64,000 nt of DNA from Coriobacteriia bacterium. Its GTDB lineage: Bacteria > Actinomycetota > Coriobacteriia > Coriobacteriales > Eggerthellaceae. Below, piece after piece: positions 26,008 through 39,311 of the stretch (position 1 is its first letter; every line of letters starts with the position of its first letter). A program made the position numbers and the translations under genes. The notes beneath the pieces are model-generated. The model did not search any database. It was not told the DNA's origin and saw nothing but the letters and a program-made list of their open reading frames with translations. Where the stretch lies: NCBI GenBank assembly GCA_030536315.1, contig JAUNQF010000002.1, positions 1 through 64,000 of the forward strand, in the 5' to 3' direction.

Positions 26008-28368
26008 ATGGCAACTACTGATTTTCGCAAGGTTATTGAAGTTATTCGAAAAACAATCTATCAATATGATTTAAAAAGCCTAAAGGTTGGTCAGCTTCAC
26101 AATGTTGTTTCAAAAGCTGTTATTGAATCTATCACACCAAATTGGCTTGCTTCGGAAGAATTGCACATTAAAGATAAAAGAGCTTGTTATTTTTCTGCCG
26201 AATTTTTGATGGGTCGTGCAATTTATAACAACCTTTTTTGTTCGGGTCTTCTTAATGCTACAAAAGTAATTTTGAACCGCGAAAAAATCAACATCGATTG
26301 CTTCGAAGAGATCGAAGACGCCGCACTTGGGAACGGTGGCCTTGGCCGTTTGGCAGCTTGTTACCTGGACAGCGCTGCAACTTGCAATTATCCCCTAACT
26401 GGATATGGAATTCGATATGGTTATGGTCTTTTCAAGCAAACTTTTGACAAAGGTTTTCAACACGAAGAAATTGATAACTGACGAAGATTAGGCGACCCTT
26501 GGAGTGTTCGTCAATCAGTTGACACCGTTACAGTTCATCTTCGTCATGGAGATGTTTATGCCGTGCCTTACGATATGCCAATAATTGGCTATGGCACAAC
26601 TCACTTGGCTACGCTTCGTTTGTGGCAAGCTGAACCTGTTCACGAATTTGATTTTGCCTTGTTTGATCAGGGAAGATACGATGAAGCAGTAAGCGAGAAA
26701 ACTCACACCGAAAACATTTCTCGCGTGCTCTACCCTAACGATTCAAGCGATGCTGGGCGTCAGCTTCGTTTGACTCAGCAATATTTTTTCTGCTCTGCAA
26801 GTTTACAAGATATTTTGAAAAAGTTTGAACAGGAGCACGGCCAAGATTGGAAGAAGCTTCCTGACTTTATTCAAATTCAGCTGAATGATACTCACCCAAC
26901 GATTTCGATTCCGGAGCTTATTCGTTTGCTTGGTGAGCGTGGAGTTGAATTTGAGCCTGCGCTAAAAATTGCGTGCAAGGTATTTAATTACACAAATCAC
27001 ACAATTATGGCTGAAGCGCTTGAGAAGTGGGACATGAAGTTTGTTCGTCACGTTTCTCACGATATTGCAAGAATCATCAAAATGATTTCTGACTATTTTT
27101 GCGAAACTAAAGAATTTAAGAAACTTTCTACAAAAGAGCAGGCAAGCGTCAAAATTCTTCAGGGCTCAACTGTTCATATGGCGCATATGGCATGTTGGTG
27201 CTCAAGCCACATTAACGGCGTTGCTCAACTTCACACTAACTTGCTAACGAGCACTGTGCTTTCAACTTTCTATAAAATTTTCCCGAAGAAGTTCATCAAC
27301 GTAACAAACGGAATTACTCAACGAAGATGGCTTGGCGTGTGCAACCCTGAACTTAGCAAGTTAATTACAAAACTTATTGGTAGCGATAAGTGGCTTAGCA
27401 ATCTTGAGATGCTCGAAGGCCTGAAAAAATACGCCGATGATGACAAAGTCATTGACAAGTTCATTGCAATTAAGGCGCACAATAAAGAAGAGCTTAACAA
27501 ATACATTCAAAAAAAGGATGGCAAGGGCTTCGACACCAATACAATTGTTGATGTTCAAGTTAAGCGCATGCATGAATACAAGCGTCAATTCTTAAATATT
27601 TTGACCATCCTTGAGCTCTACTTCATGATTAAGGAAGGCGAACTGAAAGACTTCGTCCCTACTACATTTATCTTTGGAGGCAAAAGCGCTCCAGGTTATA
27701 TGAAGGCAAAGGCAATCATTAAAGTCATTAATGCTGTTGCTGATTTGATTGACAATGACCCGGTTGTTAGCAAATACATTAAGGTAATTTTTGTAAGCAA
27801 TTATGATGTTTCTTATGCTGAAAAAATTATGGCTGCTGCTGATATTTCTGAGCAAATTTCAACTGCTGGCACCGAAGCAAGTGGCACTGGCAACATGAAA
27901 TTGATGTTAAATGGTGCGGTTACGCTGGGAACTTACGATGGTGCAAACATTGAAATTGTCGAAGAAGCTGGCAAAGAAAACAATTATATCTTCGGCGCTC
28001 GCGTTGAGGATTTGGATAAAATTCGTGACTCCTACAACCCAAGAAAACATTATCGCGAGACAAAAGGCGTTCGCCGTGTTTTGGATGCCTTAATTAACGG
28101 CACTCTTGACGATGACGGAAGCGGATTTTTCGAAATGCTTTATGGCGGAATGATGCACGAAGACAAATACTTCGTTCTGGAAGATTTTAGAAGTTGCTTG
28201 GAAGCTAAACTTAAGGCTAATGAAGATGCGAAGAATATGCGCGCTTTTGCTCGCAAGCAATTCTTAAATATGTGCAGTGCTGGAAAGTTTTCTTCGGATA
28301 GAAGTGTTAAGGAATATGCTGAAAACATTTGGCATATTGATCCTGTTAACCCAAAGAAGATTAAATAA
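26008..28368 (+). CDS. glgP: Glycogen/maltodextrin phosphorylase
   Basis: Releases glucose-1-phosphate from alpha-1,4-glucans using pyridoxal phosphate. 786 residues. ALGNGGLGRLAACYLDS and the EASGTGNMKLMLNGAVTLGT segment are diagnostic; the PLP-binding Lys is about 631. TGA at 26479-26481 (IDNWRRLGDPW) sits where the family has PDDWLxxGNPW. Most other Trp are TGG. Starts one base after the malQ stop and ends with TAATG overlapping the next gene, so malQ-glgP-peptidase form one operon. The polymer could be stored glycogen or imported maltodextrin. Confidence 0.94.
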
Positions 28369-35454: not shown

Positions 35455-36156
35455 CTACATTTTATATTCATCTACTTTATTTTTCTTGCGCCTGTCAATA
35501 GCAGCAAGCAATAAACACAAGAGCAGAATGCCAATAGCGGCAGCTGTAATTATTAAATTTGCATCGAATGTTTGAGGCGTATTTGTAGGTTCAGGCTCTG
35601 GTCCAGGGCTAGGCTCATTATAAGTAATTGTCCAACCTGGGTCATAAACCTTCTCGCCAATTGGATTAAAACAATAAACGTGAATCTTTTCAGTCGAGCC
35701 AGGGTCATAATTCGCTTCAACACGAACATCAAAATAAGTCTCATCATAAGTGTAATAAGGCTTTGGTTCTGGTGGTATCATGCTTGATTTGTATTTGAAT
35801 GTACCAGTTCTTGTATATTCAATATAAAAGGTTAAAACCTCATCATCTGTCATAGTGAAATAATACTTGTCTCCAACACTTCCCTCTGGCATGGGGGCAC
35901 CCGGAGTCAGCGTTTCAAAAACATAATTATATGTTTCCTCCATTGGTTGCCCAGTAATACTTACAGTCTTTTGCCAAAAAGTAAATGGAACTTTATCATC
36001 CTCAGCCATAAAATTACTTGATGTAGGAATTTCACCACGAGGCGAATCAGGGCTGGCGAAAGCCTTCCCCGAATTTAGCACTCCATTAATGCAGCACAGA
36101 GCGCAAAAAACAGCTAATAATAGCGCAATACAATATTTCTTACTAATACGTTCCAT
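35455..36156 (-). CDS. Minor pilin / wall-anchored protein with FctA-like domain
   Basis: 233 residues. N-terminal signal peptide (about 9-34, ending at FASPDS), then one streptococcal-pilin-like isopeptide domain (VLTFYIEYTRTGTFKYK, with DETYFDVRVE), a Pro/Glu linker, TPQTFD as a variant sorting motif, a membrane helix and a basic RRKKNK tail. Last gene of the pilus operon; its start overlaps the sortase end by 14 bases. Position and size suggest a basal or minor pilin. No TGA codons are used; Trp are TGG. Confidence 0.78.
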   Translation of the reverse strand: MERISKKYCIALLLAVFCALCCINGVLNSGKAFASPDSPRGEIPTSSNFMAEDDKVPFTFWQKTVSITGQPMEETYNYVFETLTPGAPMPEGSVGDKYYFTMTDDEVLTFYIEYTRTGTFKYKSSMIPPEPKPYYTYDETYFDVRVEANYDPGSTEKIHVYCFNPIGEKVYDPGWTITYNEPSPGPEPEPTNTPQTFDANLIITAAAIGILLLCLLLAAIDRRKKNKVDEYKM

Positions 36157-37096
36157 ACTTATTAATTTCTGGAATATCTACTACCTTTTTCTTCTTCTCT
36201 TTCTTCTTCTTGTCAGCCTGCCACAAAATGTAGGCAACAATCATAACAATTACTATTAAAGCTACAAACCATCCTGCTCACGGGAATCCAAGTCAACCTT
36301 CCAAATCTTCAACCCCCGGCCAAGAATAACCATCATTAGTTTTAAAAATATCTTCATATGTTTCATCAGTAATTTCGGCAACCAAGACTGTTCTTGCTTC
36401 AGTTTCAGCTGTTGAACAAGTTGATAAAACTAACAAATGTTGATTTGGATAATAAGATGTATCCCTTCAATATAATGATTTATCATGAATTCTTGATAAG
36501 TTCTGAATCTTTGCAATCTCTGAGTTAATTCCAAAATTATAAATTACAGAATCTTTTGAAGTCGTTTTAATATATGAAAAAATTTTTAGGCCATGGTCTT
36601 TATCATTATAAAATAGATTGCCATACAAGTGTTCATTAAAAAATTCTTGTTTGTCAAACAAATCAAGATCACCTAACATAACATGGGAATCCATGTGATG
36701 TCCATACAAAATGCTCTTATAATCAGAAAAATCCGAACTGCAATTTGTATCCATAAATATACTGCCAATTATTGACGGCTTCCCAGTTGGATCGCGAAAT
36801 AAATAATAATCAGTATCTACGCTGCTATGCATAACTGGATAATCTATGCCAGTACCATATATGGTCACTCAACCTATTACGTCTGAATTTATCTCTCTTA
36901 GATCATCATATGACAATACATTATTGCTTGTAGGTTTATAAGCTTTTCAGTGAGAACCGCTAGCTTGTGTGTGTACTAACTTGGTATCTCATATGGCATA
37001 ACAACCAATAATGAGTAGCAAAACAAGGAAAACCATCACGGCAATGTTAATTAAAGAATTACAAGCCGCGATGATTTTCCTTCATGCTTTTTTCAT
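36143..37096 (-). CDS. Class B-like sortase (pilus or anchoring sortase)
   Basis: Membrane transpeptidase that cuts sorting signals and links pilins or anchors them to the wall. About 317 residues. N-terminal helix (about 8-32), the class B opening LREINSDVIGWVTIYGTGIDYPVM, catalytic His in YGHHM (about 133), Cys in LSTCS (227) and a downstream Arg in EARTVLV, then a C-terminal membrane helix (about 277-297) and Lys-rich tail. Two membrane segments are unusual for class B and recall pilus sortases. Eight or so Trp, mostly TGA; one TGA is the fifth codon (MKKAW). The start at 37096 is the only in-frame ATG near the helix. Confidence 0.85.
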
Positions 37097-37132: not shown

Positions 37133-38686
37133 TTATCTATTAAGTTTTCTTTTTCTTCCAACCATCCAAATAATGAATGCGGCCAGAGGAATGCCGACCA
37201 TTAAAATGTAAGGTAATGCATCAATCAAAAATCCTGTAGGTGTAGGTGACATTGTGTTTGTAACAATTGACTTGTTTTCCTGTGCTGGTGCAGAACTAGG
37301 TGCAGCTGAAATTCTAGCTGTAGCAACTGCTGGTGTAACAGCAGGTGTCGTAGTGCCATCATAAGCTACTGTCAAACGATGAGGGTCAGCAGTTTGAGCA
37401 CTAGCAACTGGATCAGCTGTATCGGCAGTATAAGTTTGAGCAGCACCAACTACATCAGTAGCAGAAAAATCTGCCAAATCTTCGTAATAACCATAAGTTG
37501 TACCAACAGGTAATTTAGTTGTTGCTTGTCCACCGACTGTAGTACCATCAAAAATTAATCTCTGTCCATGTTTTAAAGGAAGACTAGATGCTGGTGTAGG
37601 TGTAGCGCCGCCTACTTGAGTAACTCTTGCGGCATTATAAGTTACACCCTCTACAGTAACCTCAGAATTAGTGAATTGAACCAAAACATCTGTGCCTGAG
37701 CCATCTACATTATGAATATACCCGTAAATAACAGTGCCTACAGTTCAGTCATAATTATAAAATTCAGGGTAAAATCTAAACTCATGCCCATAGTCAGGAT
37801 ATTGACCATCAACTACTTTCTCAATGTAGAAATTTTGATCATCCTCAGTGATTTTAGATGTATAAGTAAAACCACGATACCAATTTACAGCATTACCGCC
37901 TGCAAGAGGTGTAGTTGTACTATTGCTATCATTACTTTGTCCATAATTCTTACGAGGATCTTTCTTCTCTATAAGAACATCAGTACCGTCATCAATTTTA
38001 TTTTGATCCATAATAAAACCAGTAACAGTCTTAGTGCCTTCATTATCCGCAACATAAATGGTTAAAGTATATTTTGCAGAAGAAGCGGAGTCAGCATAAT
38101 CGCCAGTTCGACTGGTCTCAGTAATGTTGTAGACATATTCACCACCAGAAGGCCAGTTAAATCCAGTAAGAGTAAAAATTGATGTTAATCTTTGTTGAAC
38201 TTCATAAGCACAATTTGAACTAGACTCAGCTCAAGTTACTTGCAAACCCGTAGCATCAACGTTTGTGCCATCCGAATCTTCAGTGGTGATTGTACCTGGA
38301 CCAGACTTTTTAGCATACATAAAATTACCAGCATCTGCAGGAACATTACCATTAGTAATTTGTAATGGTAAAGTTACAGTTCCGTCTGTCCCTGCTGTAG
38401 GCATATTAGTGTCCGATTGATCAGTAACAGGAATACCTGCATGTGATACTTTGGTAAAAGTATAAGTAAAAGTCCCATTCAAATTAGCACCATCAGCAGC
38501 ATGAATAATCCTTGTTAATACAACTTGATCGGTATTAGTTCATGGATTTTGATGTGGGTCTTCGTTAGGATCAGCTTTTGCCTGAATGCTAAACGCAGCA
38601 ACCATTACTAAAGAGATGAGTATCGCAATAATACCCCCCCCTATGAGTGCCATCCTCCTTCCAAAATTTTCCTTAATTCTTTCCAT
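37133..38686 (-). CDS. Major pilin-like protein with isopeptide (FctA/Spy0128-like) domains
   Basis: About 517 residues. Signal peptide containing a Gly run encoded by eight consecutive G (38634-38641), then domains with the pilin pattern NGTFTYTFTKVSH and EYVYNITETSRTGDY (the Glu catalyses Lys-Asn isopeptide bonds in this family). A Thr/Ala/Pro-rich stalk follows, then a SPTPTGF sorting motif, a membrane helix and GRKRKLNR. Three TGA codons or more are read as Trp (for example LQVTW and YNYDW). It has the best Shine-Dalgarno of the locus (AAAGGAG) and a hairpin upstream, consistent with high expression as the shaft. The N-terminal frame depends on the G tract. Confidence 0.82.
38634..38641 (-). 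repeat. Homopolymeric G8 tract in the pilin signal peptide
   Basis: Eight G on the coding strand (C on plus) within codons 16-18 of the pilin gene, in otherwise AT-rich DNA. The present length keeps the frame open. Change by one base would abolish the protein, the classical layout of a slipped-strand contingency site. Confidence 0.75.
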
Positions 38687-38718
38687 AATTTTCTCCTTTC
38701 CTTAAAAATTACATTTAT

Positions 38719-38756
38719 TTTAGACAAGGGTTCCTCTACATACCCCTGTGTCTAAA
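38719..38756 (-). terminator. Hairpin between the signal-peptidase-like and pilin genes
   Basis: TTTAGACA (38719-38726) pairs with TGTCTAAA (38749-38756), with GGG/CCC pairs inside. It spans the upstream stop codon. There is no clear T tract after it on the minus strand, so partial termination or mRNA stabilisation of the pilin message are both possible. Confidence 0.45.
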
Positions 38757-39311
38757 CAATCCTATGACCTTACCTTCGGTCTTTTCAATTTCAACACATC
38801 CAAACGTCCTGCTATCTATTGCAATATCTCTGTTATCTCCCAATACAAAAACTTCGCCCTTTGGGACTATTAGGGGAAACTGAACCGCATCTTTTACCTG
38901 GGTTGTTTCTTTGGTTATATTGGGCTCACTCAACCTTGTTCCATTAACAAACAAACCACGAGAATCAATATTAACCTCGTCCCCCTCAAGCGCAATAACA
39001 CGAGAAACATTGGGTTTGTTATTATACCAAAAAACAAGCAAATCATTATTAAAAAATCGTTTATCTCACCTGTAAGAGATAACCATATCGCCATCTTTTA
39101 CAGCGGGACTCATTGACAAGTCGTTATAGCGATATGCGCCAAAAATAAAGCTAAATACCAGCACGAATGCTAGTGCTATAGCAGCTATCTTGATCAATAG
39201 CTTAATTACATCTTGCAAAAGCGAAGGCTGAGCAGTAGGCTGTGGTTGTTTTACCTGCTCAACAGTCTTATTTACTTCAGGAATATTTTTTAATCTCTTC
39301 TTTTTTAGCAT
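38736..39311 (-). CDS. Pilus-associated signal peptidase I-like protein lacking the usual catalytic Lys
   Basis: 191 residues, S26 family. A cytoplasmic Lys/Gln-rich N-terminus, one membrane helix (about 37-60), box B NDLSMSPAV (Ser66) and box E GDNRDIAIDSRTFG are present. In box D, normally KRVxxxPGD, the sequence is VSRVIALEGDEV, so the general-base Lys is Ser103. In Streptococcus pyogenes the pilus-locus SipA likewise lacks catalytic residues yet is needed for pilus assembly (from the literature as I recall it), so this may be a chaperone-like homologue. One TGA is read as Trp (ISYRWDK). The ATG at 39311 overlaps the adhesin stop by 7 bases. Confidence 0.82.

Follow-up and report, generated by a model that had tools for sequence, protein, structure and literature searches.

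Phase-variable pili and the present locus

Sortase-dependent pili that are switched by replication slippage in a poly-G tract have been demonstrated in Bifidobacterium breve UCC2003 (bbr_0113 and bbr_1889), where pili appear once the reading frame is joined, populations contain mixtures of tract lengths and the productive length is enriched in vivo (PMC9187656). Tracts of G8-G13 have been listed for bifidobacterial pilin clusters, with the tract situated in the first gene of the cluster (PMC9187656). A comparable run of eight G (G8) is found in the genome of a Coriobacteriia bacterium (GCA_030536315.1), in a stretch of 64,000 nucleotides (nt) of contig JAUNQF010000002.1 (positions 1 to 64,000, hereafter the window), at the start of a gene that likely encodes the backbone pilin of a sortase-assembled pilus. 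Both cases concern an actinobacterial gut lineage, and in both the poly-G tract lies at the 5' end of a pilin gene within a sortase pilus cluster, its frame deciding whether the pilin is made. The present locus differs in that the gene is in frame (ON) as assembled, the sortase is of class B, the genome is AT-rich and reads UGA as tryptophan (Trp), and tracts also occur in genes of giant surface proteins other than pilins. Because the tract is located in the third of five genes, the locus would share the bifidobacterial mechanism but not the locus type. In Bifidobacterium slippage was measured, whereas the window locus is known from sequence alone.

The Pil1 and Pil3 pili of Streptococcus gallolyticus undergo phase variation through GCAGA repeats in a leader peptide, and the slipped-strand change at the 5' end of the sortase-pilus operon, a feature proposed here as well, leads there to heterogeneous piliation (PMC3894217). 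That system, however, uses pentanucleotide repeats, a separate leader peptide and transcription attenuation, while here a homopolymer is present in the pilin gene itself; a terminator scan revealed none beyond the shuffle expectation. Intragenic poly-G contingency loci are also known in Campylobacter and Neisseria (e.g. PMC6321876, PMC5084427). These resemble the present case in carrying a homopolymeric G/C tract near the start of a surface gene, with ON and OFF set by frame, but belong to Gram-negative bacteria with many such loci, whereas the assembled genome studied here contains only three tracts of at least 7 within coding sequence. In its gene order the cluster matches another system. 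In the FCT pilus locus of Streptococcus pyogenes, the tip protein is followed by a SipA-like signal peptidase, the backbone, a class B sortase and the basal pilin. The window cluster has the same order (tip-sip-backbone-sortase-basal), including the class B sortase and the signal-peptidase-like gene, but its sorting signals are PTPTG/TPPTG/TPQTF-like and its backbone is without an above-threshold FctA domain. To our knowledge, poly-G phase variation is not a known feature of FCT loci.

The switch mechanism itself is not new; the additions are a further lineage, a class-B-sortase pilus, a tract in the middle of an operon and an indication of a family-wide set of switches. The literature searched contained no paper joining Coriobacteria or this lineage with homopolymer phase variation of a sortase pilus. 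Inversion-based variation of capsule clusters has been reported for Eggerthella lenta (PMC13174815).

Poly-G tract in the putative backbone-pilin gene

The G8 tract probably makes the backbone-pilin gene phase-variable through slipped-strand replication, because nearly all long G runs of the genome are at the starts of large surface-protein genes and one of these genes is OFF. An earlier note on this DNA had proposed it as a candidate contingency locus, and this is favoured by two other coding tracts, an OFF gene with an intact paralogue and recurrence in the family. The tract appears as C8 on the plus strand and as G8 on the coding (minus) strand at 38634-38641, and both sequence and pattern search confirmed exactly these coordinates; translation likewise agreed with the placement of the tract in the signal peptide, at codons 16-18 of an open reading frame (ORF) of 517 amino acids (aa). 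The codons are read in the context ATA GGG GGG GGT (Gly-Gly-Gly). The N-terminus of the pilin, MERIKENFGRRMALIGGGIIAILISLVMVAAFSIQAKA, resembles a classical Sec signal peptide, in which a basic n-region, the G tract, a hydrophobic core and an AKA cleavage site follow one another. Changing the tract in silico to G7 or G9 reduced the product from 517 aa to 25 or 32 aa, respectively, so that the gain or loss of one base in this 5' coding tract abolishes the product, as the earlier note had claimed. A role of the tract as a promoter spacer was ruled out, the tract lying inside an ORF with its own Shine-Dalgarno sequence.

According to the proposed mechanism, replication slippage would add or remove one G. 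At G8 the full 517-aa pre-pilin would be made; at a neighbouring length the ribosome would go out of frame within the signal peptide and stop within a few codons, and the shaft subunit would not be exported. The untranslated remainder of the gene would probably lower the expression of the downstream sortase and basal pilin genes through polarity. Since the tract is situated in the third gene, the upstream tip protein and signal peptidase would be unaffected and still made in an OFF cell. On this reading the tract would slip in living cells and that pili would be the product of the cluster, while the benefit might consist in immune or phage evasion and in bet-hedging of adhesion. The genome appears to carry at least three such switches, the other two starting giant surface proteins, one of which is OFF in the assembly.

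If the tract switches, a gut-type lineage varies its pili and giant adhesins at random, like bifidobacteria and several pathogens, and colonisation as well as phage and immune encounters act on a mixed population. Annotation pipelines would then label OFF copies as pseudogenes. In addition, selection for the retention of such tracts can be seen unusually cleanly in an AT-rich genome that has almost no other long G runs.

Long G runs in the genome

The assembly comprises 1.09 Mb in 31 contigs and is 75% complete. The window has a GC content of 39%, and G8 is its only G/C run longer than 5. In a pattern search of the whole genome, G/C runs of exactly 6 occurred eight times and runs of 8-10 four times, and there was no run of 7. 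Against the four observed, Markov models of order 2-5 that had been trained on the available sequence predicted 0.02-0.7 runs of 8 or more. An order-1 model predicted 2.4, but its estimate for runs of 6 or more is about six times too high. Long G/C homopolymers are thus over-represented relative to genome composition.

One of the four runs, a G8 on contig C26, was ruled out as a fourth switch, being the 3' end of a tRNA-Phe gene; the same tRNA-Phe of a sister genome also has a G run. The other three (G8, G9 and G10) are coding, and each of them lies in the first 250 bases of the coding sequence of a large secreted surface protein (Table 1). Two of these genes are ON in the assembled genome and one, the G10 gene, is OFF. 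Its adjacent tandem paralogue is near-identical over the first 190 coding bases, is without the tract and has an intact ORF of 1778 aa. The switch was first suggested without sight of the G9 and G10 tracts, which therefore test it independently. On the assumption of about 1,100 genes with 240 sense-strand bases each, gene starts occupy about 12% of positions, so by a rough estimate the chance of G9 and G10 both lying at gene starts would be about 1.5%, and far less if surface genes only are counted.

The main rival explanation is a neutral one, in which three glycines of the signal peptide happen to be encoded by GGG GGG GGT and no switching occurs; we regard it as unlikely. A signal peptide can accommodate three glycines, G8 is shorter than the other two coding tracts, and in dinucleotide shuffles of the window alone it was only mildly unusual, 12 of 100 shuffles reaching as many G7 matches (G8 being scored as two overlapping G7 matches). 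On the other hand, GGG is the rarest glycine codon in the window genes (6.7%), and their codon usage gives a probability of about 0.0045 for GGG GGG at a given Gly-Gly. Chance is possible for G8 taken by itself but hard to reconcile with the other two tracts, both of which are at the 5' ends of surface-protein genes, one out of frame beside an intact paralogue; the recurrence of the same architecture in relatives, described below, also argues against it. The decisive case against chance rests on the whole genome and on the locations of the tracts, not on the window alone.

The two tandem DUF285 proteins, encoded by L015:9238-14574 and by the downstream G10 gene, both open with an unusual N-terminal segment, DPGGGGGEFVNAQTGD followed by a transmembrane (TM) segment, which resembles a cell-wall-sorting tail set before a second signal-like segment.

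Recurrence of poly-G tracts among relatives

A survey of 140 genomes of the same family for the pattern SD-ATG-N(9-39)-G9+ (SD, Shine-Dalgarno sequence) found about 89 sites in 45 genomes, compared with about 36 sites for the reversed pattern and 30 sites in 25 genomes for the corresponding C9 pattern. Sites were classified by hydropathy and ORF length, a site qualifying if the tract ran directly into a signal-peptide or TM segment and the ORF reached at least 150 aa. This was the case for 27 of the 79 classified G sites, 12 of them in frame and 15 out of frame. The qualifying genes include those of VWA tip-pilin-like proteins (most with DUF7601), a DUF285+FctA protein, a choline-binding lectin and KTGD-anchored proteins. 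Within the VWA group, homologous genes have tracts of G12, G9, G11, G10 and G9 in the same place; among the homologues of the KTGD group the tracts are G10, G10 and G9, and the frame states differ.

We lean towards the view that pili and giant adhesins in a Coriobacteriia family (probably Eggerthellaceae) belong to a previously undescribed phasome that spans the family, formed by poly-G tracts lying between the basic part of a Sec signal peptide and its hydrophobic part, and kept even in a reduced, AT-rich member that reads UGA as Trp and is otherwise nearly without long G runs.

These data also bear on a further explanation, that transcriptional slippage or ribosomal frameshifting on G8 tunes pilin output without any change in the DNA. 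Long homopolymers can provoke slippage of RNA polymerase, and at the 12 family sites that are in frame such slippage would lower expression rather than enable it. However, the length of the tract in DNA differs among homologous genes of relatives (G9-G12), and the OFF-frame G10 gene differs from its intact paralogue at the DNA level, which makes this explanation improbable. A sequencing or assembly artefact, with another true tract length or a mixture collapsed by assembly, is the least probable of the alternatives: the assembly is fragmented, homopolymers are error-prone and the G10 gene might contain an error, but G8 and G9 keep long ORFs open, as the correct sequence would, and if a mixture had been collapsed, the tract would in fact vary in length.

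Several points weigh against a phase-variation switch at G8 and against its wider occurrence. The window site is known from one assembly with a single tract length, and the switching rate may be low, because no length below G8 is listed for the Bifidobacterium system. The identity of the pilin rests on single-locus evidence. The closest AT-rich relative found is without a homologue of the pilin, and its four long G runs all lie outside the 5' ends of recognised surface genes. Finally, by the same classification, which is crude in GC-rich genomes, 8 of the 30 C sites qualified, a fraction not much below that of the G sites; the family argument thus relies on absolute numbers and on the differences in tract length between homologues. 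Several of these qualifying C sites look like genuine poly-C equivalents.

C9 tracts just past the start codon and running into signal peptides were seen in several family genomes (L188, L203, L198, L183 and L201), and may be poly-C forms of this switch. In L226, L045 and L260/L261, also of the family, poly-G at the beginning of a gene leads into membrane or regulatory-looking proteins, not surface proteins. In an AT-rich relative, L147 (G180:C4:54387), a G9 run that lies upstream of a small peptide gene (MIEKKYESPRLEII...) is located on the reverse strand at about base 1502 between TTGAAA and TATAAT, with a 19-nt spacer, and looks like a transcriptional switch formed by poly-G in a promoter spacer.

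Searches of 100 relatives, the nearest AT-rich relative and a named genome collection found no orthologous pilin. The one weak match among the 100 relatives, in L013, is probably spurious, as L013 has neither a surface-protein gene nor a G/C run that reaches 6.

Organisation of the putative pilus gene cluster

The five genes of the cluster are transcribed from the minus strand, and the pilin gene follows those of the tip protein and the signal peptidase. The features are collected in Table 1.

Table 1. Features of the window pilus cluster and the two further coding G tracts (positions in the window unless a contig, C1 or C16, is given)
Feature	Position	Strand	Details
Large tip/adhesin-like protein, 1349 aa	39305..43354	-	First gene of the cluster; C-terminal TPPTG sorting-like signal
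Signal peptidase I family protein, SipA-like position in pilus locus	38736..39311	-	PF10502 5e-26, TIGR02227 4e-31
Shine-Dalgarno AAGGAG	38693..38698	-	6 nt 5' of ATG; sequence
Pilin-like backbone candidate, 517 aa, UGA=Trp	37133..38686	-	C-terminal SPTPTG, hydrophobic segment and RKRK tail
Predicted Sec signal peptide, residues 1-38	38573..38686	-	Read from the translation, not by a signal-peptide predictor
G8 homopolymer, proposed slippage site	38634..38641	-	Codons 16-18, Gly16-18; sequence, pattern search, translation
Class B sortase, 3' of the pilin gene	36143..37096	-	YGHHM and LSTC motifs; TIGR03064 above cut-off
Small secreted protein, candidate basal pilin	35455..36156	-	Last gene of the cluster; TPQTF and TM tail
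G9 tract	C1:21644-21652		nt 61 of the gene of a surface protein of at least 2568 aa; in frame (ON)
G10 tract	C16:16785-16794		nt 235 of a DUF285/BspA-like protein gene; out of frame, stop at 86 aa (OFF)

The product of the third gene is likely the backbone pilin, judging from its sequence and neighbours. It has a signal peptide and a sorting-like tail, and the genes of the class B sortase and the signal peptidase are adjacent, as expected for a surface structure. Its match to TIGR03786, the streptococcal pilin isopeptide-linkage domain, is weak (E=0.0095) and below the cut-off, no Pfam FctA match was obtained, and AlphaFold run on the pilin alone gave an unusable model with a mean pLDDT (predicted local distance difference test) of 38. 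Because of the sub-threshold domain match and the unusable model, the assignment is likely rather than proven. The earlier designation as the major shaft pilin is accordingly favoured by the locus order, the class B sortase and the sub-threshold domain match, but it lacks a firm family match; the placement of poly-G in the pilin gene of a sortase-dependent pilus cluster takes the identity of the pilin from this locus context.

The tip-like protein matched fibro-slime, PA14 and DUF7601, all below the cut-off. The best PDB matches of the class B sortase were 4y4q (1e-44) and 3psq (2e-30). Profile searches gave no family match for the candidate basal pilin.

Genetic code and other observations in the window

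The pilin ORF contains three in-frame TGA codons and is open only if UGA is read as Trp. This reading holds for the genome as such: 33 long ORFs of the window, defined with TAA and TAG as stops (the tip-like, pilin and sortase ORFs are examples), contain 89 TGA and 95 TGG codons. Release factor 2 was present in 20 of 20 relatives and was not found in the 75%-complete assembly, and the release factor 1 gene of the genome itself has an in-frame TGA. Of the tRNAs relevant here, only tRNA-Trp(CCA) and a tRNA-SeC-like (UCA) gene were found, and no SelB was detected above the cut-off in this incomplete (75%) assembly. The literature searched on alternative codes holds no mention of this lineage in the text.

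The window also encodes a glycogen phosphorylase (26008-28368), whose nearest named relatives are found in one Coriobacteriia genome (77%) and then in Clostridia (64% and below), suggesting that this gene may be of horizontal origin.
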